The notes below the pieces were generated by a model. That model made no database searches and was not told the DNA's origin. It saw nothing but the letters and a program-made list of their open reading frames with translations. A stretch of 64,000 nt of DNA from NCBI GenBank assembly GCA_902602415.1, contig CACKQW010000002.1, positions 1-64,000 on the forward strand, written 5' to 3'. Made by a program: the position numbers and the translations under genes. Of the stretch, positions 12,306 through 25,000 are shown piece by piece; the stretch's first letter is position 1; every line of letters begins with the position of its first letter. The DNA is from an uncultured Bacteroidota bacterium (lineage in GTDB: Bacteria; Bacteroidota; Bacteroidia; Flavobacteriales; Flavobacteriaceae).

Positions 12306-13619
12306 TTAGATATACTGATTAATTATATTTTCAAAAAGTTCTTGCTTGCCACTTTCTAATGCAATTTCATTTGAATCTTTTGCAATATTATATAGATCAT
12401 TTAGTTCTAATTTACCATTTTCAAAATCCTTTCCTTTTCCGCTATCAAAAGTTTGATATCTCTTTTTTCTTAGCTCAGAATAGGATGAAGAAGAAATAAT
12501 TTTATCAGCTGTTATTAATGCTCTAGCGAATGTATCAGCACCTCCAATATGAGCATAAAAAATATCTTCAATATCAGTAGAATTTCTTCTAATTTTAGCA
12601 TCAAAGTTAATTCCACCTCCTTTTAATCCTCCTGCCTCAAGGAAAACAAGCATAGCCTCTGTTGTCTCTTGGATATTGTTTGGGAATTGGTCTGTATCCC
12701 AACCATTTTGGTAGTCTCCTCTGTTCGCATCGATGCTTCCCAACATACCAGCTTTGGCAGCTACAGTTAATTCATGCTGCATAGTATGTTGCGCTAAAGT
12801 GGCATGGTTAACTTCAATATTAAGTTTGAAATCTTTTTCTAAATCATATTCTTTTAAAAATCCGATAGCAGTAGCAGAGTCAAAATCGTATTGGTGTTTC
12901 ATAGGCTCCATAGGTTTCGGCTCAATAAAAAAGGTGCCGGTAAAACCTTGCGCTCTCGCATAATCTTTTGCCATGGTTAGAAATTGAGCCATATGGTCTA
13001 ATTCCCTGCCCATGTCCGTATTCAGTAGGGACATGTACCCTTCACGCCCCCCCCAAAACACATAATTTTCACCATTTAATGCAATAGTCGCATCTAATGC
13101 TAATTTAACTTGAGCTCCAGCTCTTGCAACGATATTGAAATTAGGATTTGTTGCAGCGCCGTTCATATATCTTGGGTTTGAAAAGCAATTTGCCGTACCC
13201 CATAATAGTTTGATTCCAGTGTCTGACTTCTTTTCTTTAATATATTCAACAATAGTGTTTAATCTTTTTTCTGATTCAATTAAACTAGACCCTTCCCGAA
13301 TTAGGTCATAATCATGAAAACAAAAATATTCAAATCCCATTTTACTGATAAACTCAAAAGCTGCATCGGCTTTATCTTTTGCTGCCTGGACAGGATCAGG
13401 GGATTTATCCCATTCAAAGTTTTGTGTTCCAGGCCCAAATGGATCGGACCCAACTCCACAGAAAGAATGCCAATATGCAATAGCAAATTTAAAATGTTCT
13501 CTCATAGTTTTACCAGCAACAACTTTTTCGGGGTCATAATATTTAAACGCCAGAGGATTATCAGACTCTCGCCCCTCAAATTTAATTTTGTCAATTCCTT
13601 TGTAATATTCTTTACTCAT
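12306..13619 (-). CDS. xylA: Xylose isomerase
   Basis: 437 residues, the usual length of class II xylose isomerases. Clear motifs are [15 protein letters not shown] near the N-terminus, FCFHDYDL (catalytic His), [25 protein letters not shown] (metal-ligand Glu) and [19 protein letters not shown]. It interconverts D-xylose and D-xylulose with divalent metal in the cytosol. It lies 4 bases after xylB and 5 bases before the symporter gene in one tight operon, which makes xylose the clear end product of this locus. Confidence 0.97.
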
Positions 13620-13623
13620 TATT

Positions 13624-15111
13624 TTATAGTTTGTTATTTAATATATTCAGTAGATTTTTTTTCCAATTTTCATAAGCATCTTCATACTCAGATTTATTTT
13701 TTAGTGGTAGATATGTTAATACGTGATCATTTGCAGTAAGATCTTTACTGAATGAACTTAAATCTTTGTCCTCAACAGCAGATGCTCTAGCTGCACCAAA
13801 TGCACCAGTTGTGTTATAAATTTCTATCTCATGTCCTATCAATGTCGCAACAGTATTTGAAAATATTTTTGAGCGAAATAAGTTGTCATTCCCTGCTCTC
13901 AAAACATTTATTTTAGCACCATCATCTTTTAAAATTTCCATTCCATACATAAAAGAAAATGCAATTCCTTCTAAAGAAGATCTATATAAATGTCCGTGAG
14001 AGTGTTTATTTAAATTAACATTACATATGTGGGTTCCTACATTAATATTATTAAGCATCCTTTCAGCGCCATTTCCAAATGGTATTGTATATATACCCTC
14101 TGAACCTACAGCAACTTTTGATGCAAGCTCATTCATTTTTTCATAAGAGTTACCGACGCTGTGATTTCGGAGCCATCTATATTGAATTCCTGCGCCGTTA
14201 ATACATAATAATTTTCCAAGGGATTTGTGATTGGTGTTGTGATTAACATGCGCAAAATGATTAATTCTGGAGGATTCTTTTGACTTAATATTATTGGTAA
14301 CACAATAAAGTACACCGGAGGTTCCGCCTGATGCTGCAACCTCTCCATTTTTAAATACGTTTAAAGCCAAAGCATTATTGGGCTGATCACCCGCTCTATA
14401 AGTTATGGTTGTTCCTATGGATAAGCTGGTCTCTAATGCAGCCTCTTTATTTACTTTCCCTTGTATTGAAAAATTTTCTACCAGATCAGGTGTAAGATTA
14501 GGATTAATTCCATAATATTCTAGTAGCCAATCAGCAGTTGTATCGTTTTGAAAATCCCATAGAATACCTTCTGAAAGACCGTTACATGTTGTATTTATAT
14601 CTCCAGATAATTTAAATGCAATAAAGTCTCCTGGCAACATATATTTATATATTTTTTGATAAATCTCAGGCTCATTATCTTTGACCCATTTTAATTTAGA
14701 AGCTGTAAAATTTCCAGGTGAATTTAGCAGATTTTTCATACATTTTTCTTCTCCAATTTCTGAAAATGCTTTGTTCCCGATTTCCACAGCACGGCTGTCA
14801 CACCAGATAATAGAGTTTCTTAATACACTTCCTTTATTATCAACAAGAACCAACCCATGCATTTGATAAGAAATACCTATAGAAATTATCTTTTTAGGAT
14901 CTGAATTTGATTCATGACAAACTCTTTTAATAGCATTACATGTATGTAACCACCAATCGTTTGGGTCTTGCTCTGCCCACCCATCTTTGTTAGAAATTAT
15001 CCCCATTTCATTGTTTGGCTCATGAACACTATGAATTGATTTCCCATTGGACGCATCAACCAATCCAGCTTTAACAGATGAGCTTCCAATGTCAAGACCT
15101 AAATAATACAT
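13624..15111 (-). CDS. xylB: Xylulokinase (FGGY family)
   Basis: 495 residues. The N-terminal FGGY phosphate-binding segment [18 protein letters not shown], the IWCDSRA segment, a second-domain [17 protein letters not shown] with the likely catalytic Asp, and a C-terminal [14 protein letters not shown] segment identify the family. It phosphorylates D-xylulose to D-xylulose 5-phosphate for the pentose phosphate pathway. It is the first gene of the xylB-xylA-symporter operon. The 89 bases upstream are AT-rich and I could not fix a promoter or operator there. Confidence 0.95.
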
Positions 15112-16590: not shown

Positions 16591-17670
16591 TTGGAATTAC
16601 TTCTCTTATACGTTTTTTTAACCCTTAGCTTATCATTTTTATGTTCAATACTAGAAGCAGTACTTCTTAGTATTAACACTACCTTCATTAAAATTAAACT
16701 CAAGGAGGGCAAGTCATATGCAAACAAATTATTGAATTTAAAAAACTCAATTGATGAACCTCTAATTATAATATTGACTCTTAACACTATTGCCCATACT
16801 GTCGGAGCAATTCTGGTTGGAGTCCAAGCTAAAGTTGCTTATTCTGAACTTAACTATGAAAATACTTTTTTTGCTAGTGGAATTTCTGATGAACTATTAG
16901 TTGGTTTTGTATCCACAGTAATGACTATTTTGATATTACTATTTTCTGAAATTATTCCAAAAACAATTGGAGCAAAATATTCCAATAGTCTTGCTCAGTT
17001 TGCCTCTATTTTTTTAAGCTCCATTATTCCTATTTTTAAGTACTCTGGAGTTCTTTGGGTATTACAATCATTCACAAAATCAATTGGAGGGTCAAAAAAA
17101 GAATTATTTATTAAAAGAGAAGATATTTCCATTATTGCTGAAATTGCTCAAGAAGAAGGTGTTATTGAGGAGAAAGACTCACAATTTATCAAAAACATTG
17201 TTAAGCTTAGAAATGTAACATTAAAAGAAATAATGACACCTTATTCAGTAATGGTAACTGCTAGTGAGGATGTGACTATTCAAGAATTTTATACACAAAA
17301 CACGGAGCTAAATTTTTCAAGAATTCCGATTTTAAATGATAATAAAATTGAATCTTATGTTCTAAAAGATACAATTCTTGAAAGCATTATTAATGATAAA
17401 GGTCATTTCAAATTAGCAGAAATCAAACGACCAATTATTACTTCTTCAGAAAGGACAAGAATTCCAAAACTTTTTGACAAGCTTCTCAAGAAGAGAGAAC
17501 ATATTTCACTGGTGGTTGATAAGTCTGATGCGCCAATTGGACTTGTTACCTTAGAGGATATTATTGAAACAATACTTGGCTATGAAATTGTTGATGAAAC
17601 AGATGTGGTTGATGATATGCAAGTACTAGCAAAAAAAATAAGTTCCCAAAAATTAAAAAATAACAAATGA
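16591..17670 (+). CDS. CNNM/CorC-like membrane protein (DUF21 plus CBS pair)
   Basis: 359 residues from a TTG start. The N-terminal half is a DUF21 transmembrane domain (SILEAVLLSINTTFIK; EPLIIILTLNTIAHTVGA; LLFSEIIPKTIGAKYS). It is followed by a helical linker (EEGVIEEKDSQFIKNI) and a CBS pair (EIMTPYSVMV near 215 and IGLVTLEDIIETILG near 325). The C-terminal CorC/HlyC domain of longer relatives is absent. Family members are linked to Mg2+ or Na+ transport. A TATATTTG -7-like box lies at 16564-16571, but no convincing -33 TTG is at proper spacing. Its last 4 bases overlap the next gene (ATGA). Confidence 0.85.
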   Translation: MELLLLYVFLTLSLSFLCSILEAVLLSINTTFIKIKLKEGKSYANKLLNLKNSIDEPLIIILTLNTIAHTVGAILVGVQAKVAYSELNYENTFFASGISDELLVGFVSTVMTILILLFSEIIPKTIGAKYSNSLAQFASIFLSSIIPIFKYSGVLWVLQSFTKSIGGSKKELFIKREDISIIAEIAQEEGVIEEKDSQFIKNIVKLRNVTLKEIMTPYSVMVTASEDVTIQEFYTQNTELNFSRIPILNDNKIESYVLKDTILESIINDKGHFKLAEIKRPIITSSERTRIPKLFDKLLKKREHISLVVDKSDAPIGLVTLEDIIETILGYEIVDETDVVDDMQVLAKKISSQKLKNNK

Positions 17671-17882
17671 AAAAACTAAATTCTCCAAATTCTAATCATT
17701 ATGTTTTTTTTTTGGCTATCATAGCTGATGTGTTTTTATTATATAATTTGATTCAATATATTCGTTATGGGCTTGATACATATTTTAATGGATTTATCGC
17801 TTCTTTAGGAATAGGTATGATACTACTTATTTATCTTTGGAAAAATAATTACTTCACTCAAGACAAAGACAAATCATTATAA
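17667..17882 (+). CDS. Small membrane protein, 71 aa
   Basis: Starts at an ATGA overlap with the CNNM-like gene, so the two are probably translationally coupled. It has two hydrophobic segments (HYVFFLAIIADVFLLYNLIQYI and a second around residues 42-58) and a charged C-terminus (QDKDKSL). No family recognised. Its TAA stop overlaps the probable non-ATG start of the CAP gene. Confidence 0.55.
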   Translation: MKKLNSPNSNHYVFFLAIIADVFLLYNLIQYIRYGLDTYFNGFIASLGIGMILLIYLWKNNYFTQDKDKSL

Positions 17883-17907
17883 AAAAACTAATACTATTAC
17901 TAATTAC
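17876..17907 (+). repeat. Diverged copy of the dispersed leader repeat
   Basis: The segment around AAAACTAATACTATTACTA matches the leader repeat (ATGAAAAAGCTAATACTATT) seen at 20210, 20509, 20843 and 21058. ATA replaces the ATG. It encodes the signal-peptide start of the CAP protein. Confidence 0.6.
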
Positions 17908-18397
17908 TATTGTCTTGCCCTTTGGGCAAAATGACAATGATATTCAGCAAGCAGTTAAAGTTCACAATGAAGCTAGAAAAGAGGTTGGGGTTGATAAATT
18001 AATTTGGTCTTTGGAATTACAAAATGATGCAACTATTTATGCAAAAGAACTTGCAAAAAAAGATAAAGGATTAGTTCACTCTACTAACTTGGGTGATCAA
18101 GGTGAAAATTTGTATTTATCTTATGCTTCCAAAACAGTAAATAATGTCACATCTAATGTATTTTCAAAAACCCCTCTAAAAGATGCGTCAGTTGCTTGGT
18201 ATAATGAAATAAAGGATTATTCATATGCCTCAATTAAAATGGATTCTTTGTTTCCAAAAGTTGGACATTACACTCAAATGATATGGTCCACTACAAAGGA
18301 AGTTGGCATTGGAAAAGCCCGATCTAAATCAGGCAAAGTTTATGTTGTTGCTAGATATTATCCCGCAGGAAATATACTTGGTAAAACCCCTTATTAG
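17879..18397 (+). CDS. Secreted CAP/SCP-domain protein, probable non-ATG start
   Basis: CAP-superfamily domain: AVKVHNEARKEVG, HSTNLGDQGENLY, GHYTQMIWSTTKEVG (CAP1) and YVVARYYPAGN (CAP2). Bacterial members are small secreted proteins of unclear function. A TTG at 17915 would cut the signal peptide. Extending in frame to 17879 gives an excellent signal (KKLILLLITIVLPFG, then Q), but the aligned initiator is ATA, with ATT one codon upstream. The DNA matches the signal-peptide leader repeated at 20210-21342, where this codon is ATG. It may use a rare initiator overlapping the previous stop (ATAA), or be a gene whose start decayed. Confidence 0.65.
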   Translation: MKKLILLLITIVLPFGQNDNDIQQAVKVHNEARKEVGVDKLIWSLELQNDATIYAKELAKKDKGLVHSTNLGDQGENLYLSYASKTVNNVTSNVFSKTPLKDASVAWYNEIKDYSYASIKMDSLFPKVGHYTQMIWSTTKEVGIGKARSKSGKVYVVARYYPAGNILGKTPY

Positions 18398-18503
18398 TAT
18401 AATCTTAACAATGATTGCTTGTAGTAGTGATGATTCAAATTTATATTATGTTATAAAATATTTTATTTCTATTTTTAATAGCAAGAAAAATTATAATGTA
18501 TAG
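18393..18503 (+). pseudogene. Possible remnant or tiny lipoprotein frame without a normal start
   Basis: This frame encodes a lipobox-like stretch (SIILTMIAC, then SSDDSNLYY) and continues to a TAG at 18501-18503. There is no ATG before the hydrophobic core; the only candidates are ATT at 18393 (overlapping the CAP stop) and ATA at 18399. The next gene starts inside its 3' end. It may be a decayed small lipoprotein gene. Evidence is weak. Confidence 0.25.
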
Positions 18504-18681
18504 TTTATTTAATGTTGGGATTTTATATTTATGTATGGGTTCTCTTTCCATACTAGTTTATTTTAATATTCCAGAAGAAATGAATAGGTCCTCAATGGCA
18601 ATATGGATTTTAGGACTTAGTACAATTTATTTTGTTTTAGGGTTGTCTAGACTCAGAAAACATTATAAGAAAAATAAATAA
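18496..18681 (+). CDS. Small membrane protein, 61 aa
   Basis: 61 residues with two predicted transmembrane helices (about residues 3-23 and 34-52) and a basic tail (RLRKHYKKNK), giving a hairpin membrane protein of unknown function. It lies within the accessory array of tiny genes and is followed by convergent minus-strand genes. Confidence 0.5.
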   Translation: MYSLFNVGILYLCMGSLSILVYFNIPEEMNRSSMAIWILGLSTIYFVLGLSRLRKHYKKNK

Positions 18682-18718
18682 CTACATAGCATAAGATTTG
18701 AAAAAGCAAATCCTATTA

Positions 18719-19162
18719 TTATATCCATTTTCTGGTTTTACTCTTATATGTAATATATTTTTGACCAAATTTTTTAGTCAAGAAAATCTCTTCTCTTTTA
18801 ATCTGAAATCTATTTATCCAAAAATAAAAAAGGATCGGTGTAATAATTGAGAAAATATTCAAATAGTATATTGAAGTTGATATGACAATCATCAAAAAAC
18901 CTAAATACATCGGGTTTCTTGAATATTTATAGATTCCTGAAGTTATAAGTTTATTTACTTTTTTAAACTTTATTGGATTAACAGTAGTCTTAGATTTAAT
19001 AAACTTGGAAACGGGAACTATTAAAATAAACACCCCAATTAAAAGTATAATTATTGAGACTAAAGTTTGATTTGGTATATTAATTATATCAATTTTTTTT
19101 GATGATAAAAAATTAGAAACAACTAAAATTAAAACTATAACAGGCGGCGGTATTTTTAACAT
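18719..19162 (-). CDS. Isoprenylcysteine/phospholipid-methyltransferase-like membrane protein
   Basis: 147 residues with about four transmembrane segments. The C-terminal half carries the ICMT/PEMT signature: SGIYKYSRNPMYLGFL (near 75-90), then REEIFLTKKFGQKYITYKSKTRKW. These residues form the S-adenosylmethionine-binding region in integral-membrane methyltransferases of this family. The substrate cannot be told; bacterial members are mostly uncharacterised. Confidence 0.78.
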   Translation of the reverse strand: MLKIPPPVIVLILVVSNFLSSKKIDIINIPNQTLVSIIILLIGVFILIVPVSKFIKSKTTVNPIKFKKVNKLITSGIYKYSRNPMYLGFLMIVISTSIYYLNIFSIITPILFYFWINRFQIKREEIFLTKKFGQKYITYKSKTRKWI

Positions 19163-19203
19163 TTATTAAATGTTTAAATAATGGTTCTTAATTTTTACAA
19201 ATC

Positions 19204-19554
19204 CTAAACAACTTTTAAATTTTGAGAGATATGATTATTTTTCTCAACTAAATATAATTTAGTTTTTATCGAAAACCCATTAGATTTAAAATAATGTAAA
19301 GTGGATTTATTACAATATGATTCAATTATAAAATTAGGATAATTTTCTTGAACGTATTTTTCTCGTGTATTAAACAATTGTTTATATATTCCCTTACCTC
19401 TATTTATTTTTTCAATGAAAGCATCTTGATATCTTATTGAATTATTTTTCCTTACTTTAAAAGCACATTTGCCAACAACATCAGAAGAGGACATATCAAT
19501 AGCCAAAAATAGTATCATACTTTTATCAACTTCTACAATACTAATCTTAATCAT
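19204..19554 (-). CDS. GNAT-like N-acetyltransferase
   Basis: 116 residues from the ATG at 19554, chosen because it begins directly with the first beta strand (MIKISIVEVD). The GNAT motif A region is visible as INRGKGIYKQLFN (acetyl-CoA pyrophosphate loop). It is followed by IIESYCNKSTLHYFKSNGF, matching the usual beta5-alpha4 region ending in a GF turn. Soluble; the substrate is unknown. Confidence 0.68.
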   Translation of the reverse strand: MIKISIVEVDKSMILFLAIDMSSSDVVGKCAFKVRKNNSIRYQDAFIEKINRGKGIYKQLFNTREKYVQENYPNFIIESYCNKSTLHYFKSNGFSIKTKLYLVEKNNHISQNLKVV

Positions 19555-19752
19555 TATATAAATTTTTACAAATTTATTACGTGGGGGAAAAAACAAGTAT
19601 TTTTAATTTTAAATTTCCTTGAATTTTATATTAATTAATTGTTTACACAATATGTAATGTATAGAGCAACATACGACATATCAATATCCTCATTTCTTGC
19701 TTGACAATCCATAAACAACTTACTATCTTGTGGATATATTAAACTATACATT

Positions 19753-20178
19753 ATGAAAAACTTATTTTTATTATTATTTATCCCTTTATTCTTTTTTTCT
19801 TGTATTGAAGTTGAAAGAGAACTTGAAGTTGAAAGAGAACTTGAAGTTGTAATTGTTGAGTTTGGAGATTTAACAAGTCTGAGCGATAACAAACAATATG
19901 GAAACTTTGAAATTAAAGTTCCCGAAATTAATGATGATGTAATGGAAGAAGGTGCTGTACTTGCATATATTGAAAGAGCAGCAACCGAAGAAAGACCTCA
20001 AAGATGGAGTCAATTTCCTCAATACAATCCTATATGGACAGAAATCGGAGATACAACATTTTCTTATTTAAGTTATGGGGAAGGTTTTGTTAGAATTTCT
20101 TTGCAAAGTGAAACTTCTGTGGAGGGAATTGCAGAAACATTTAAGGGATTAAAATTGAAATTAGTAATATTTGAATAA
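19753..20178 (+). CDS. Small lipoprotein of unknown function
   Basis: 141 residues with lipoprotein signal MKNLFLLLFIPLFFFSC. The mature protein begins with an EVEREL tandem repeat. A compact, probably all-beta domain follows with no recognised family (GNFEIKVPE, YIERAATEERPQRWSQFP, IGDTTFSYLSYGEGFVRISL). The CAACATACGA sequence about 85 bases upstream also occurs in front of later genes of this array. Confidence 0.6.
   Translation: MKNLFLLLFIPLFFFSCIEVERELEVERELEVVIVEFGDLTSLSDNKQYGNFEIKVPEINDDVMEEGAVLAYIERAATEERPQRWSQFPQYNPIWTEIGDTTFSYLSYGEGFVRISLQSETSVEGIAETFKGLKLKLVIFE
19807..19848 (+). repeat. 18-bp tandem repeat, 2.3 copies
   Basis: The unit GAAGTTGAAAGAGAACTT occurs twice exactly (19807-19824, 19825-19842), followed by GAAGTT. 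It encodes EVERELEVERELEV directly after the lipobox cysteine, in the tether region of the lipoprotein. Confidence 0.9.
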
Positions 20179-20209
20179 GATATTTTAGCTAATTAATTCA
20201 TTATTCTAT

Positions 20210-20263
20210 ATGAAAAAGCTAATACTATTACTATTTATTTTATTGACAGATGGAAATCATTGA
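20210..20263 (+). other. Leader mini-ORF (17 aa) overlapping the next small gene
   Basis: An ATG at 20210 opens the repeated leader MKKLILLLFI, which ends after 17 residues at TGA 20261-20263. The ATG of the following membrane-protein gene (20250) lies inside it in another frame, giving a 14-base overlap. The DNA from 20208 to about 20239 is nearly identical to the 5' end of the Kazal gene at 21058. Confidence 0.5.
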
Positions 20264-20495
20264 TTACATATTTATAATTTGCTGTGTAATAGGCATTTTT
20301 GCATTATTGGTATTAATAATACGTCCATTCATTCCAAAATATATGATGCTTGAAAGTAAAGAAATTAACATTAAGAGAGGAGAAAGAATTGGTGCTGTAA
20401 TGGGGATTACTATTGGAGTTTTTATACTTTTTTATATTAACGTTAATGGTTATTATGATATGATTGTTGACTATTTAAAAAGCCTATTATCTTAA
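20250..20495 (+). CDS. Small membrane protein, 81 aa
   Basis: 81 residues with two transmembrane helices (about 5-29 and 48-65) joined by a charged loop (LESKEINIKRGER). No known family. It follows a leader mini-ORF that overlaps its start, so its translation may be coupled to that leader. Confidence 0.5.
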   Translation: MEIIDYIFIICCVIGIFALLVLIIRPFIPKYMMLESKEINIKRGERIGAVMGITIGVFILFYINVNGYYDMIVDYLKSLLS

Positions 20496-20529
20496 ACCAA
20501 CATACGATATGAAAAAGCTAATACTATGA
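20496..20529 (+). repeat. Leader repeat copy with 6-codon mini-ORF
   Basis: AACCAACATACGATATG plus AAAAAGCTAATACTAT is identical over about 32 bases to the segment starting at 21044. Here it encodes only MKKLIL and then TGA (20509-20529), ten bases before the ATG of the next small gene at 20540. Confidence 0.75.
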
Positions 20530-20539
20530 AATTTATATT

Positions 20540-20788
20540 ATGAAGAAACTATTTAAGTGGGTTTTATATGTAGCAACTACTATTTGTATCATTATGTCTG
20601 TTTTTAGTTTGATTGCTCATCGAATTGTGACAACAAGTAATGACTTTGAGAGGGGAGAACAAGTTGTTTTAAACACTTCTGAATGTCCCTGCTGGGAGAT
20701 AGCTATCCCCTTTATAGTTGCTTCAATAATTGGGCTTATATTGATTGTAACAATTAGTATCAATAATAAGAATAAGGAAAAGAGGTGA
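20540..20788 (+). CDS. Small membrane protein, 82 aa
   Basis: 82 residues with two hydrophobic segments (about 6-27 and 56-76). The loop between them contains SECPCW, and the C-terminus is basic. No family recognised. It is preceded at ten bases by a truncated leader mini-ORF. Confidence 0.5.
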   Translation: MKKLFKWVLYVATTICIIMSVFSLIAHRIVTTSNDFERGEQVVLNTSECPCWEIAIPFIVASIIGLILIVTISINNKNKEKR

Positions 20789-20836
20789 TTATTGTTAGAA
20801 TTGAAAAATCTAAACTATCATAAGAAAAGAGTAAGA

Positions 20837-20866
20837 AACGATATGAAAAAGCTAATACTATTATGA
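20837..20866 (+). repeat. Leader repeat copy with 7-codon mini-ORF coupled by ATGA
   Basis: ACGATATGAAAAAGCTAATA continues to MKKLILL and TGA at 20864-20866. The stop overlaps the ATG of the next gene (20863) as ATGA, the classical layout for translational coupling. Confidence 0.75.
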
Positions 20867-21045
20867 AAAAAGATAAAAAAATAGCGCTTATAATAATGTT
20901 TATAGTTGGCTTAATTCTAATAATGGTAGCTATAGAGTATGATAATAACACTACTGCAGAGAAGATTCGAAATGAAAGAGAAAAAATTGAAGCAAGATTA
21001 GAGGCGGTAAAAGCAAAAGATTCAATAGAAAACAAAAAAGAATAA
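20863..21045 (+). CDS. Small single-pass membrane protein with helical tail, 60 aa
   Basis: One transmembrane segment (about residues 8-25) is followed by a strongly charged Glu/Lys-rich helix (AEKIRNEREKIEARLEAVKAK) that could form a coiled coil. It starts at an ATGA overlap with the leader mini-ORF. No known family. Confidence 0.45.
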   Translation: MKKDKKIALIIMFIVGLILIMVAIEYDNNTTAEKIRNEREKIEARLEAVKAKDSIENKKE

Positions 21046-21092
21046 CCAACATACGATATGAAAAAGCTAATACTATTACTATTTATTCCAAT
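21044..21092 (+). repeat. Complete leader repeat at the Kazal gene
   Basis: This is the most complete copy: AACCAACATACGAT, ATG at 21058, then AAAAAGCTAATACTATTACT and ATTTATTCC. The coding part gives MKKLILLLFIP, an N-terminal signal-peptide start. Confidence 0.8.
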
Positions 21093-21285
21093 AGTATTTG
21101 GTTGTAAAGATGATGATGAGGATGTTCCTAATATGTGTATTGATGAATCATTAATCAACTTGGCATCACCTTGTCCTGCAGTTGTTGAACCTGTATGCGG
21201 TTGTGACGGAAATAGTTACGGCAATAGTTGTGAGGCTCTTAATTGGAATGGTGTGATTGCATTTGAAGACGGGACTTGTGATTAA
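21058..21285 (+). CDS. Kazal-domain lipoprotein
   Basis: 75 residues: lipoprotein signal MKKLILLLFIPIVFGC, an acidic tether (KDDDEDVPN), then a Kazal-type serine-protease-inhibitor fold (CPAVVEPVCGCDGNSYGNSC, FEDGTC) with the expected spaced cysteines and the VCGCDG-x-SYGNSC core. Kazal-like domains occur in many marine Bacteroidota; inhibition of extracellular proteases is a family-based inference. Confidence 0.85.
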   Translation: MKKLILLLFIPIVFGCKDDDEDVPNMCIDESLINLASPCPAVVEPVCGCDGNSYGNSCEALNWNGVIAFEDGTCD

Positions 21286-21297
21286 ATTAAAATAAAA

Positions 21298-21342
21298 TAC
21301 GATATGAAAAAATTACTGATACTATTACTATTTATTCCACTT
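21298..21342 (+). repeat. Leader repeat copy at the TonB-C-like gene
   Basis: ATACGATATGAAAAAATTAC followed by TGATACTATTACTATTTATT repeats the Kazal-gene leader with a few changes and encodes MKKLLILLLFIP. Confidence 0.7.
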
Positions 21343-21792
21343 GTGTCTTTTGGCCAATCTGAAACTGAAAATAAGGTTGAAGTGCCTATTAATGTAATTG
21401 ATAATGTTCCAGTTTATCCTGGATGTAAAGGAAGTGAGTTAAAAAAGAGAAAATGTATGTCTGATAAAATTGCAAATTTTGTTGTTAAAAATTTTAAAAC
21501 CAAAATAGCCCAACGGCGCGGACTTACAGGTAGACAAAGAATAAATGTAATATTTAAAATTGATAAAAATGGATATGTTACCGATGTTAGAGCAAGAGCT
21601 CCCCATCCAAGCTTAGAACAAGAAGCTATAAGAATAATTAATTTATTACCAAAAATGGAGCCTGGACTTGAAAATGGGGAACCAGTAATTGTCCCTTATT
21701 CTCTGCCAATTATTTTTCAGGTTAGAGAAAATACAAATAAAGAAGAAATGCCGCCCAAAAAGTCTTATAGAAATTGGCAACCCAATATTTAA
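21304..21792 (+). CDS. Periplasmic TonB C-terminal-like domain protein
   Basis: 162 residues with signal peptide MKKLLILLLFIPLVSFG. The mature part matches a free-standing TonB C-terminal domain of the Bacteroidota type: VPVYPGCKG, RQRINVIFKIDKNGYVTDV, LEQEAIRIINLLPKMEPG, VPYSLPIIFQV. It lacks the transmembrane anchor and proline-rich linker of a true TonB, so it is unlikely to transduce energy alone. Confidence 0.85.
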   Translation: MKKLLILLLFIPLVSFGQSETENKVEVPINVIDNVPVYPGCKGSELKKRKCMSDKIANFVVKNFKTKIAQRRGLTGRQRINVIFKIDKNGYVTDVRARAPHPSLEQEAIRIINLLPKMEPGLENGEPVIVPYSLPIIFQVRENTNKEEMPPKKSYRNWQPNI

Positions 21793-21793
21793 T

Positions 21794-21820
21794 ATGAAAA
21801 AGCTAAAGAGTGCCAAATGA
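21794..21820 (+). other. Terminal leader remnant (MKKLKSAK mini-ORF)
   Basis: The sequence AATATGAAAAAGCTAAAGAG repeats the start of the leader module, but the frame stops after 8 codons with no gene behind it. Three TGCCA elements (21811, 21823, 21834) follow and the tRNA gene begins about 70 bases on. Probably a remnant. Confidence 0.35.
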
Positions 21821-21891
21821 GTTGCCATATAGTTGCCACTTTTTTACTAACTTTATAATAGTGTAAAACTAATTTAACTGGTTAGGTATAG

Positions 21892-21965
21892 TGGAGAAGA
21901 TGGGACTCGAACCCACGACCTCTTGACTGCCAGTCAAGCGCTCTAGCCAGCTGAGCTACATCCCC
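21892..21965 (-). tRNA. tRNA-Ala (anticodon GGC)
   Basis: The minus strand folds as a 74-nt cloverleaf: acceptor GGGGATG/CTTCTCC, D-stem GCTC/GAGC, anticodon stem CTTGA/TCAAG with loop CTGGCAG (anticodon GGC), and T-stem GTGGG/CCCAT with loop TTCGAGT. The G3-U70 pair, the alanine identity element, is present. The 3' CCA is not encoded. One acceptor mismatch (T6-T67) is visible. Confidence 0.95.
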
Positions 21966-22030
21966 CTTACAAGAATAAAAATTAATATTTCAAAATTAAT
22001 ATTTTATTTTTGCATTAGATATTCTAGTAG

Positions 22031-25000
22031 ATGAAAAACCTATTTTATTTATTTTTTTGCTCTATAAGTATTACTATTTATTCTCAGGAATGGAAGGAAA
22101 TGGCTAATAACAATTCTTATAATTTTTATGAAGTTGTTAGTGAAGCAGAAAGATATTTTGAGGGCATAGATAAATTAAAAAAAGGATCTGGATGGAAACA
22201 CTTCCAAAGATGGGTACACGAGAATGAGCCTAAGTTTTATCCCTCTGGAAAAAGAGATTCAATTGACCCTTATCTTACTTCAAAAGAATTTAAAAAGTTT
22301 TTATCAAATCATCAGAAATCCTTGAATATAAATAACTCTTGGGAAGAACTTGGACCATACTATATCGAAGAGGTTACAGGGCATTATGCTGTAGGTCTTG
22401 GAAGGGTTGAAGCTTTTTATATCGACCCCCTAAATGATGACAGAATTTTTTTAGGATCTAGAAGTGGAGGATTTTGGAAGACAAATAATGGCGGTGAAAC
22501 TTGGACAAATTCAACTGACTTTTTGATAGCATCTGGAGTAAACACCATTGCTGTTTCACCATTTGATCCGCAAAGGATTCTAATTAATGTAAAAAACTCT
22601 CATAATGATACAACTCATGGAATATATGAGTCAGTTGACGGTGGAAATACATGGAATATCACAAATTTTAATCCGGATAATTTAGGGTGGGGAGGCTTAG
22701 GAACTAACAATAGAATACATAAAATAATGTATCACCCAACAATTGAAGATCTGGTTTTTGTTGGTACATCTGAGGGCATTTACAGGTCTGAAGATAGTTT
22801 TAATACTTTTGCTCCAGCGCAGGTAGAAAATATTTTTAATATTTCTGGTAGCTATGATTTTATTGAGTTTCATCCTGAAAATGAAAACATAGTTTATCTA
22901 GCCAATAAAAATAATTATCAAAACATATACATATCATTTGATATGGGTATTAATTTTCTAAATTCAGGACTATTGAATGGAAATGATAGTCCAATAAAGC
23001 TGTCCATTTCTAATGCTTGTAGTGATTGTGTATTTGTTGCTTCATCCTCTGGGATTTGGAAATCAGAAAATTTTGGATTGAGTTTTTCAATGGTCTCAAA
23101 CCCAGAAATAACAAATTATGGTGCTTTTGCTGTAAGCGATATTGATATTAATCATATGCTTTTGGGTGACATAGATACCCACATGTCTAATGATGGAGGA
23201 CAAACATTTGATCAGGTAACATTTTGGTCTACAGGAAATGAAAATTATGGTCAAGATGGTAAGTATGTTCATGCAGATATAAGAGGATCAAGATCTTTCA
23301 ATGGAGATTTTTGGGTAAATACAGATGGGTTTTTGTGTAAGAGCTCTGACAATGGGATAACTTGGGAAATTTTTGAAGGTCAATCGATTCGAGAAAATTA
23401 TTGTTTAGGGGTAAGTCAGTCTAATAATTTTAGATCAATTGCAGGTTCCCAAGATAACGGAACTAGTATTAAGGGAGACGCGAATTGGATTGAATTTTAT
23501 GGCGCAGATGGTATGGAAGGAATAATTCACCCACTAAATGATGATTGGATGATTGGAAGTGTTCAATTTGGAGGTAAAATTAGAACCAAGGACGGTGGAT
23601 ATTCTCATGATGGAGTCAATCCAAGTGATTTTTCTGGGGATTGGGTTACACCACTGTTTTATGATCCAAAAGATCAAATGAGAATTTACACAGCTTCTGA
23701 TACATTATATAGAAGCGATGACTTTGGATCCAGCTGGGTAGCTTTGTCTAACCCGTTCAATAGTAATGTTACGCATGCTGCAATTGCAAATAATAACTCT
23801 AACATTATCGCTCTTTCAAATTATAATGAATTGAAAATATCTTATAATGGAGGTCTAACATTTTCTACTATCTCTTCCAATTTGCCTGGCCAGTTCATTA
23901 CAGACATTGCTTTTGATCCAAAAAATGATAACAATATTATTGTCACTTATGGAACTTATTTTTCTGATAATAATAAGGTGTTTTTGTCAACTAATTCAGG
24001 TTCTTCTTGGCAAAATATTACATATAATTTAGGGAACATGCCTATAAGGACTGTTGTAATAGATAGTGATAATAATTCAACAATTTATTTAGGTGCCGAG
24101 ATTGGAGTTTATAAAAAAGAAATGGACGCAAGCTCATGGGAGTTATTTAACCAAAATCTTCCAAATACAACGATAATGGAGTTGGAAATAGTAAAAGGTT
24201 CCAATATGCTTAGAGCTGCGACCTGGGGAAGAGGATTATGGGAGTGTAAACTTCCAAATAAAGAAAATTATCCGTCGGTAGTCAAAACTAGAATTTCAAA
24301 CCAACCAACTAATACCACACCAAAAGAAGGAGTTGATCAGTTTGTTACCTCCACAATTATGAGTAATAGTGATTTGAGTAATGTATATGTTCAATGGTCT
24401 GCAGGCCTATTTGAAAACGGCGTTATACAAATGGTTAGTCAGTCTCAAGATGAATGGGTTTCAGAGACTCCAATCCCAAATTATCCAGAGGGTTCAAAAA
24501 TCTATTTTAAAGTATTTGCTGAAACAATAGACAATTTACTTACTGAGACTTTCACTTTTATGTATGAAGTTAAAGCAAATATATATTGTACTCCATCTAT
24601 GAATTGTGAGGTGTTGGATGGGTTTCAATTATTTCAGCTTGGCGACATTGATAATGAAAGTCAATGTGAAGGATATGCAGACTTTATGAATATTTCTACG
24701 GAACTATTCCAAAACTCCATTAATGAACTAACTGTGACAACTGGTTATGGAGATCAATATGTAAAGGTTTGGATTGATTTTAACGATGATTTAGAGTTTA
24801 CTAATGAAGAAATTGTAGTTGACGATTATATTTTAGCGCCTGGTCAAGGGCCTGGAACATATACAGAAACTATTGATTTGGTAATCCCTGAGAATGCGGT
24901 ATTAGGAACTCACATTTTGAGGGCAAAAACAAATTGGGCTGCAGATGTTCCTGATGACCCTTGCTCTATAACTACTTATGGAGAAACAGAGGATTATACA

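Follow-up and report, generated by a model that had tools for sequence, protein, structure and literature searches.

The stretch analysed here (the window) comprises 64,000 nucleotides of contig CACKQW010000002.1 (positions 1 to 64,000, forward strand) from an uncultured Flavobacteriaceae bacterium (assembly GCA_902602415.1), whose draft genome amounts to 1.27 Mb in 28 contigs. Within it, an array of small genes fills the gap between a gene which we take to be CorC-like and the tRNA-Ala gene at 21891-21965, the anchor of the array (Table 1). The genes share a leader whose core, M1, is a 20-bp sequence, ATGAAAAAGCTAATACTATT, around the gene start; among 133 copies, CAACATACGAT preceded about half and ACTATTTATTCC followed about two thirds or more. 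A second leader (M2) and TGCCA repeats (M3) occur as well. An earlier note, made from the letters of the window alone, had described the shared module, and the copies it had listed were recovered as three exact matches, one copy with a single mismatch, one variant, one half copy, one diverged copy and one fragment. The near-identity it had reported for the copies near 20496 and 21044 extends over about 33 bases, and the genes behind the module, including those for the CAP, Kazal-type and TonB-C proteins, are indeed mostly unrelated. The note had mentioned neither the M3 element at 21805 nor the tRNA-Ala as anchor, nor a second array in contig C5 of the genome. Among ten window proteins compared with Pfam four had no match, and an Rfam search (E up to 1) of positions 17600-22050 returned the tRNA and no other RNA element.

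Table 1. Features of the small-gene array (positions are those of the window).
Feature	Position	Strand	Remarks
M1 core, 2 mismatches	17879..17898	+	start codon lost (ATA); in frame with CAP gene
CAP-family protein	17915..18397	+	PF00188, 68.2 bits
61-aa protein, family F21	18496..18681	+	hydrophobic by eye; no Pfam match
Weak M1 copy, 3 mismatches	18698..18717	+	TTG start
PEMT/ICMT-type methyltransferase, cassette gene	18719..19162	-	family F2, 14 loci
GNAT-like acetyltransferase	19204..19596	-	below Pfam cut-off
CAACATACGA tail and M4/M2-type 5' leader	19667..19752	+	
141-aa protein, family F14 (7 loci)	19753..20178	+	lipoprotein-like by eye; DNA 96% identical in G005
M1 core, exact	20210..20229	+	mini-ORF (open reading frame) overlaps next gene
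81-aa protein, family F31 (5 loci)	20250..20495	+	hydrophobic by eye
M1 core, 1 mismatch	20509..20528	+	mini-ORF MKKLIL-stop directly ahead of next gene
82-aa protein	20540..20788	+	hydrophobic by eye; no Pfam match
M1 core, exact	20843..20862	+	mini-ORF; ATGA overlap with next gene
60-aa protein	20863..21045	+	FtsL_2 match, weak, below cut-off
M1 core, exact	21058..21077	+	in frame; start of Kazal protein
Kazal-type protein	21058..21285	+	PF00050, 22.4 bits (cut-off 21)
TonB-C domain protein	21304..21792	+	variant M1 leader with one extra codon; PF03544, 43.1 bits
Half M1 core (ATGAAAAAGCTAA) joined to M3	21794..21806	+	
M3, three TGCCA repeats	21805..21845	+	spacing 11-12 bp; integrase-arm-like
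tRNA-Ala (GGC)	21891..21965	-	3' end towards array

The module is common in the genus of the host. A genome search with CATACGATATGAAAAAG (up to 2 mismatches) gave 12 forward and 2 reverse matches, against 0 for a reversed-pattern control, and the window genome carries a further M1 array in contig C5. Among 21 genomes sampled from the genus, M1 (up to 1 mismatch) was present in 20. A 27-base pattern (up to 3 mismatches) was found in the window genome and in 17 of 20 same-genus genomes, and in none of 39 genomes of other genera. An exact M1 search of 397 family genomes, a sample for which not all genomes of this genus were drawn, matched six genomes: three of this genus, two of genus g155 and one with a single copy elsewhere; with up to 1 mismatch, M1 occurred in three of six g155 genomes. 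Moreover, the M1 pattern was met in 24 named stretches titled Bacteroidetes, Flavobacteriales or Flavobacteriaceae, drawn from many assemblies with names of their own, including MED-G13, MED-G59 and NAT90. Judging from names such as MED-G13, these stretches are presumably of marine origin, and we take the assemblies with AG- names to be single-cell genomes. Several codons of the core are uncommon ones: in long ORFs of the fetched loci, AAG makes up 0.20 of the Lys codons, CTA 0.14 of the Leu codons and ATA 0.34 of the Ile codons. Identity at the DNA level is thus more than protein conservation alone would account for.

Neighbouring sequences are shuffled at M1. The flanks of 176 M1 copies (up to 3 mismatches) from loci L053 to L099 and the window were clustered, L072 being excluded as an overlap of L071; these clusters depend on the blastn thresholds. 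More than one downstream cluster was met by 35 of the 37 multi-member upstream clusters, and more than one upstream cluster by 34 of the 35 multi-member downstream clusters. In a control analysis confined to array loci (155 copies), 3 of 94 pairs with the same upstream cluster kept their downstream cluster across M1, compared with 107 of 180 at a point 250 bp to the right of M1, 32 of 52 at 250 bp to the left and 28156 of 35154 at random array points more than 150 bp from M1. Homology likewise tended to end at the core: 26.8% of 1396 left ends fell at positions -20 to +5 (random, 2.7%) and 19.8% of 1401 right ends at 0 to +50 (random, 4.8%), high-scoring segment pairs being taken in both directions. 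The 14-mer of highest context diversity sits within M1 (99 copies with 59 left and 59 right contexts), and the top-ranked 14-mers by this measure are parts of M1 and its flanks. Gene order is not fixed, as 5 of 169 upstream/downstream junction types recurred. In pairs sharing only the upstream cluster, agreement above background ended at position -1, and in pairs sharing only the downstream cluster it began at about +19/+20 (71 and 105 pairs, at most six per cluster, the mixed cluster U0 being omitted upstream), so that the exchange interval is the core itself. The DNA-level patch of the earlier note is supported, with the correction that exchange concerns the 20 bp beginning at the start codon, and the untranslated part that the note had included travels with the upstream cassette.

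Cassettes are gained and lost as units, as seen from the cluster splits and from filled and empty sites. G007 has a single core between two cassettes; in G003 the same pair of cassettes encloses a third, of 175 bp and encoding a 51-aa protein, with a core on either side of it. An insert of 495 bp is present in G017 at a position with one core in G007. In both aligned pairs the core is present at each end of the insert. Sixteen pairings of the type A|C versus A|..|C were found in all, of which only the two aligned ones are relied on, because several rest on the mixed cluster U0. Together with the low continuity across M1, these pairs support the proposal that the leader is a homology patch for insertion, exchange and loss of genes. 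Cassettes also move between species, as array pieces are closer to each other than the backbones of the genomes that carry them. This comparison, made with equal scoring on pieces of 180 bp or more from 96 genome pairs, admits only detectable, hence similar, array pieces, and 43 further pairs had backbone and no array piece. Where the backbone was below 80% identical, array pieces were closer than the backbone in 76 of 77 pairs, the best of them reaching 90% in 35 pairs and 95% in 11, whereas no backbone piece in these pairs came up to 90%. At a backbone identity of at least 80%, they were closer in 15 of 19 pairs. One multi-gene block, which probably holds carotenoid-synthesis and methyltransferase genes, recurs in L053, L059, L064, L065, L071 and L093; between G005 and G016, about 3.9 kb of it are 93% identical, beginning at M1.

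The arrays lie mostly at tRNA genes. Their setting was surveyed in the 20 loci that held two or more M1 copies (up to 3 mismatches) and extended 1.9 kb or further past the last copy. Fifteen had an intact tRNA gene (Asn or Ala) within 2.8 kb, with its 3' end towards the array; L065 had a tRNA-Asn 3' fragment, L058 and L074 a tRNA in the opposite orientation, and at L061 and L095 no tRNA was found. In all 15 loci with such a tRNA, a pair of TGCCA motifs about 11 bp apart lay in the interval that separates the tRNA from the array; its distance from the tRNA was at most about 150 bp in 14 of them and 1.9 kb in L057. Such pairs (spacing 10-12 bp) numbered 41 in 851,601 bases of fetched array-rich sequence, compared with 0.8 in mononucleotide shuffles. 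F116-type integrases adjoin two arrays (L076 and L065) and occur in the g155 locus L102, which has exact copies of M2 and M3 and a truncated tRNA-Ala ahead of the integrase. A TGCCA pair stands at the start of two of these three integrase genes (L076 and L102, not L065), and in L076 it is the very pair between tRNA and array. From this position and motif, M3 may be read as a putative arm-type site of F116-type integrases, and the arrays as the cargo of tRNA-integrated islands from which the enzyme would in most cases have disappeared. A search with the first 18 bp of the tRNA 3' end (up to 3 mismatches) gave matches at the tRNA genes themselves, at the fragment in L065 and at a single L068 site, and in this search the cassettes were not separated by direct repeats of the tRNA end.

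Three loci showed further features at tRNA genes. In L065 (G009, 13679-14865), the F116-type integrase gene comes after a 3' fragment of tRNA-Asn that is truncated near the anticodon; this is probably an integrative element in its own right, next to the array. In L057 (G003, 12568-14601), M3 and tRNA-Asn are separated by a 1.9-kb insert, on the far side of which 9 bp of the tRNA end were seen, by eye, to be repeated; the insert probably stems from a later integration at the same tRNA. L088 (G002:C19, 6645-7049) has an M3-type TGCCA pair beside tRNA-His and one module copy, near a contig end.

We consider it probable that these arrays are tRNA-anchored cassette islands shuffled by short-homology recombination between shared expression leaders. 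A cassette would be a small gene or gene group reaching from one M1 copy to the next, and recombination inside the leader would allow cassettes to be gained, lost and re-ordered within and between species, with M2 acting in the same way as M1. The exchange would be general, over about 15-30 bp of homology, RecA-dependent or by annealing, and not site-specific; the leader would persist by supplying a start, in the form of a signal peptide or of a mini-ORF that is translated and coupled to the gene behind it; and F116-type integrases may have brought such islands to tRNA genes. General short-homology recombination is favoured for three reasons. M2, which is unrelated to M1 in sequence, shuffles too (small numbers: its 38 copies split 5 of 5 multi-member upstream and 6 of 6 multi-member downstream clusters). 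Some upstream sequences that lead into M1 in one genome lead, in another, into a non-M1 gene after only CAACATACGATATGAAAAA(G). Finally, no serine recombinase (PF00239) was found in the 21 genomes, and the window genome has, as tyrosine recombinases, a XerC-like protein (285 bits, cut-off 335) and XerD (341 bits, cut-off 330).

Several findings weigh against this reading or limit it. Splitting was also seen at other plus-strand gene starts (upstream clusters, 12 of 30; downstream clusters, 23 of 37), where continuity was kept in 157 of 1075 pairs, which runs against any claim that splitting is confined to M1; this set is not a clean control, because it holds array genes led by M2 or CAACATACGAT, which explain part of the splitting, as well as some large clusters. 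Among 173 array pieces of at least 90% identity, the left end lay at M1 in both loci for 63, in one for 21, elsewhere for 83 and at a sequence edge for 6, and the right end in both for 26, in one for 58, elsewhere for 83 and at a sequence edge for 6. M1 ranked above all other short sequences in context diversity, which fits a site-specific event as well, and the limitation of the exchange to about 19 bp is also compatible with such an event; as the core is nearly invariant, a fixed crossover point and exchange anywhere in the patch are indistinguishable. Some junctions have only 13-15 bp in common, which is short for RecA. In 4 of the 19 pairs with a backbone identity of at least 80% the array pieces were not closer, and the genomes are drafts, 56-86% complete.

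The alternative that survives best, which we judge rather unlikely, is that a dedicated recombinase (XerC/XerD, an F116-type integrase in trans or another enzyme) integrates circular cassettes at M1 in an integron-like manner. This would account for the sharp edges of the exchange interval, for the common orientation of the copies (up to 2 mismatches) within each array examined, for the clean insertion of single cassettes and for the F116 integrases in L076, L065 and the sister-genus locus L102. It agrees less well with the shuffling at M2 and with junctions that arise without the M1 core. The recombinases that were found also weigh against it: the window genome has one XerC-like protein and one XerD, tyrosine recombinases (PF00589) gave one to four matches per genome among the 21, and intact F116-size genes were found near arrays in two of the 21, with weak integrase-like fragments in a third (G011). 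Moreover, the 54-nt M1 consensus showed no hairpin or attC-like fold beyond chance (z-scores of 0.32 and 0.71 for the two strands). The earlier statement that the system lacks an obvious recombinase stands insofar as no integron integrase or serine recombinase was found in these draft genomes, but it must be qualified, the arrays lying mostly at tRNA genes beside integrase-like sites. A non-integron gene capture in which the translated gene start is itself the recombination site, used by a recombinase or by F116 integrases in trans, is in our opinion unlikely; a captured cassette would then bring its start codon together with a secretion signal or a coupled leader peptide.

The coding properties of the leader bear on the view that it is kept only for expression or secretion, genes being gained and lost in the ordinary way and only leader-adjacent insertions being expressed. 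Among the 176 leaders, 96 stayed open for 73 codons from the leader start, 12 stopped at codons 35-72, 58 were mini-ORFs of fewer than 35 codons and 10 had no start codon. In the array loci, 17 of 50 short leaders had a gene starting inside the leader ORF or at most 10 nt after it; in 10 of these 17 the leader ORF overlapped the next ORF by 4 nt, several of them being the same gene family. The gene was further off in 9, and 24 had no nearby plus-strand ORF of 45 aa. These arrangements suggest that the leader may also be an expression element, and the long open leaders together with the 17 closely coupled ones would suit a leader kept for expression only. We nevertheless regard that view as quite improbable, given the mini-ORFs, the copies without a start codon, the short leaders with no ORF nearby, the preserved uncommon codons and the core at both ends of the inserts that were checked.

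The cargo is diverse. Across the array regions, 85 proteins (cluster representatives and singletons, one integrase included) matched 71 Pfam families (E up to 0.001), some of which overlap on one protein; among the 25 families listed were YHYH, MscL, fasciclin, SnoaL, carotenoid synthesis, MFS and scramblase. Compared with PHROGs, the same proteins yielded 46 families, each of the 25 listed being found in one member, tail-fibre-like and integrase families included. It is most improbable that the arrays are integrons or CALINs (cassette arrays without integrase), to which the mostly unrelated small genes, the repeated junction and the common end element in most loci would correspond: besides the lack of an attC-like fold in the M1 consensus, the scores against the integron integrase model TIGR02249 were far under its cut-off of 265 bits (XerC-like 104, XerD 149, F116 20-36), a comparison covering the two Xer proteins of the window genome and the three F116 proteins, in a set of incomplete genomes. 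The idea that the arrays arose by recent tandem duplication of a single gene, or are artefacts of assembly, deserves next to no credence, as the genes are mostly unrelated and the pattern comes from many separately named assemblies, even though a few cassettes repeat within an array (F65 twice in L066) and single-cell amplification can yield chimeras.

Several known systems resemble the arrays in part. Integrons hold arrays of small cassettes with a repeated junction, the units of which are gained and lost, and the arrays described here share these features; they differ in that no integron integrase and no attC-type fold were found and in that the junction lies at the 5' end of the gene and is often translated. 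Shuffling at the promoter early stem-loop (PeSL) was reportedly described by Arbiol in 2010 and Comeau in 2014. The PeSL of T4-like phages is a short conserved expression element between small ORFs that is held to mediate gene shuffling (PMC4503421). M1 and M2 resemble PeSL as short shared elements at shuffling junctions with a putative role in expression, but they lie on a bacterial chromosome, M1 is a start-codon leader whose consensus forms no stem-loop beyond chance, and the cargo is mixed and cellular. Additive flexible genomic islands and tycheposons, the latter with a tyrosine recombinase, are tRNA-anchored variable islands in small-genome aquatic bacteria (PMC10872708). The anchoring at tRNA 3' ends (15 of 20 loci) is similar here, but the repeat of the additive islands is the last 20 nt of the tRNA (PMC10872708), whereas a start-codon leader unrelated to the tRNA separates the cassettes of the present arrays. 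Start-associated sequences of cluster K mycobacteriophages are short conserved DNA motifs at many gene starts (PMC12699233), for which a role in gene expression is proposed and, in the accessible part of that source, shuffling is not mentioned; M1 differs as an exchange point. Among open-access literature, covered in part, no title named this leader-cassette system, and a bacterial cassette array whose exchange point is a start-codon leader is new with respect to the searchable literature.

If the favoured reading is true, the arrays would supply apparently marine bacteria of small genome size with new genes (secreted, membrane and metabolic) in an integron-like way, with expression signal and exchange point combined in one 20-bp leader. 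They would offer reduced genomes a concrete route to keep a fast-turning accessory gene pool, and M1 would be a marker sequence for reading this pool from metagenomes.

Two further candidates were tried and rejected. One was XerC acting on a partner site of the attI kind: G004, G011 and G018 have isolated modules close to xerC, but the xerC neighbourhood is conserved, it carries no module at that place in G000 and G003, and the isolated modules sit ahead of secreted-type genes. The other was a viral origin: four patterns had no exact match in IMG/VR, and window positions 19660-21890 gave no blastn match in phage or plasmid records. Copies of M2/M4, such as that at 19667-19752, resemble a putative promoter with a 5' untranslated region. 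At window positions 17879-17915, the CAP frame is open from the module onwards, but the start codon of the module is ATA and overlaps the stop codon of the upstream gene; the CAP gene may be decayed or unusually started.

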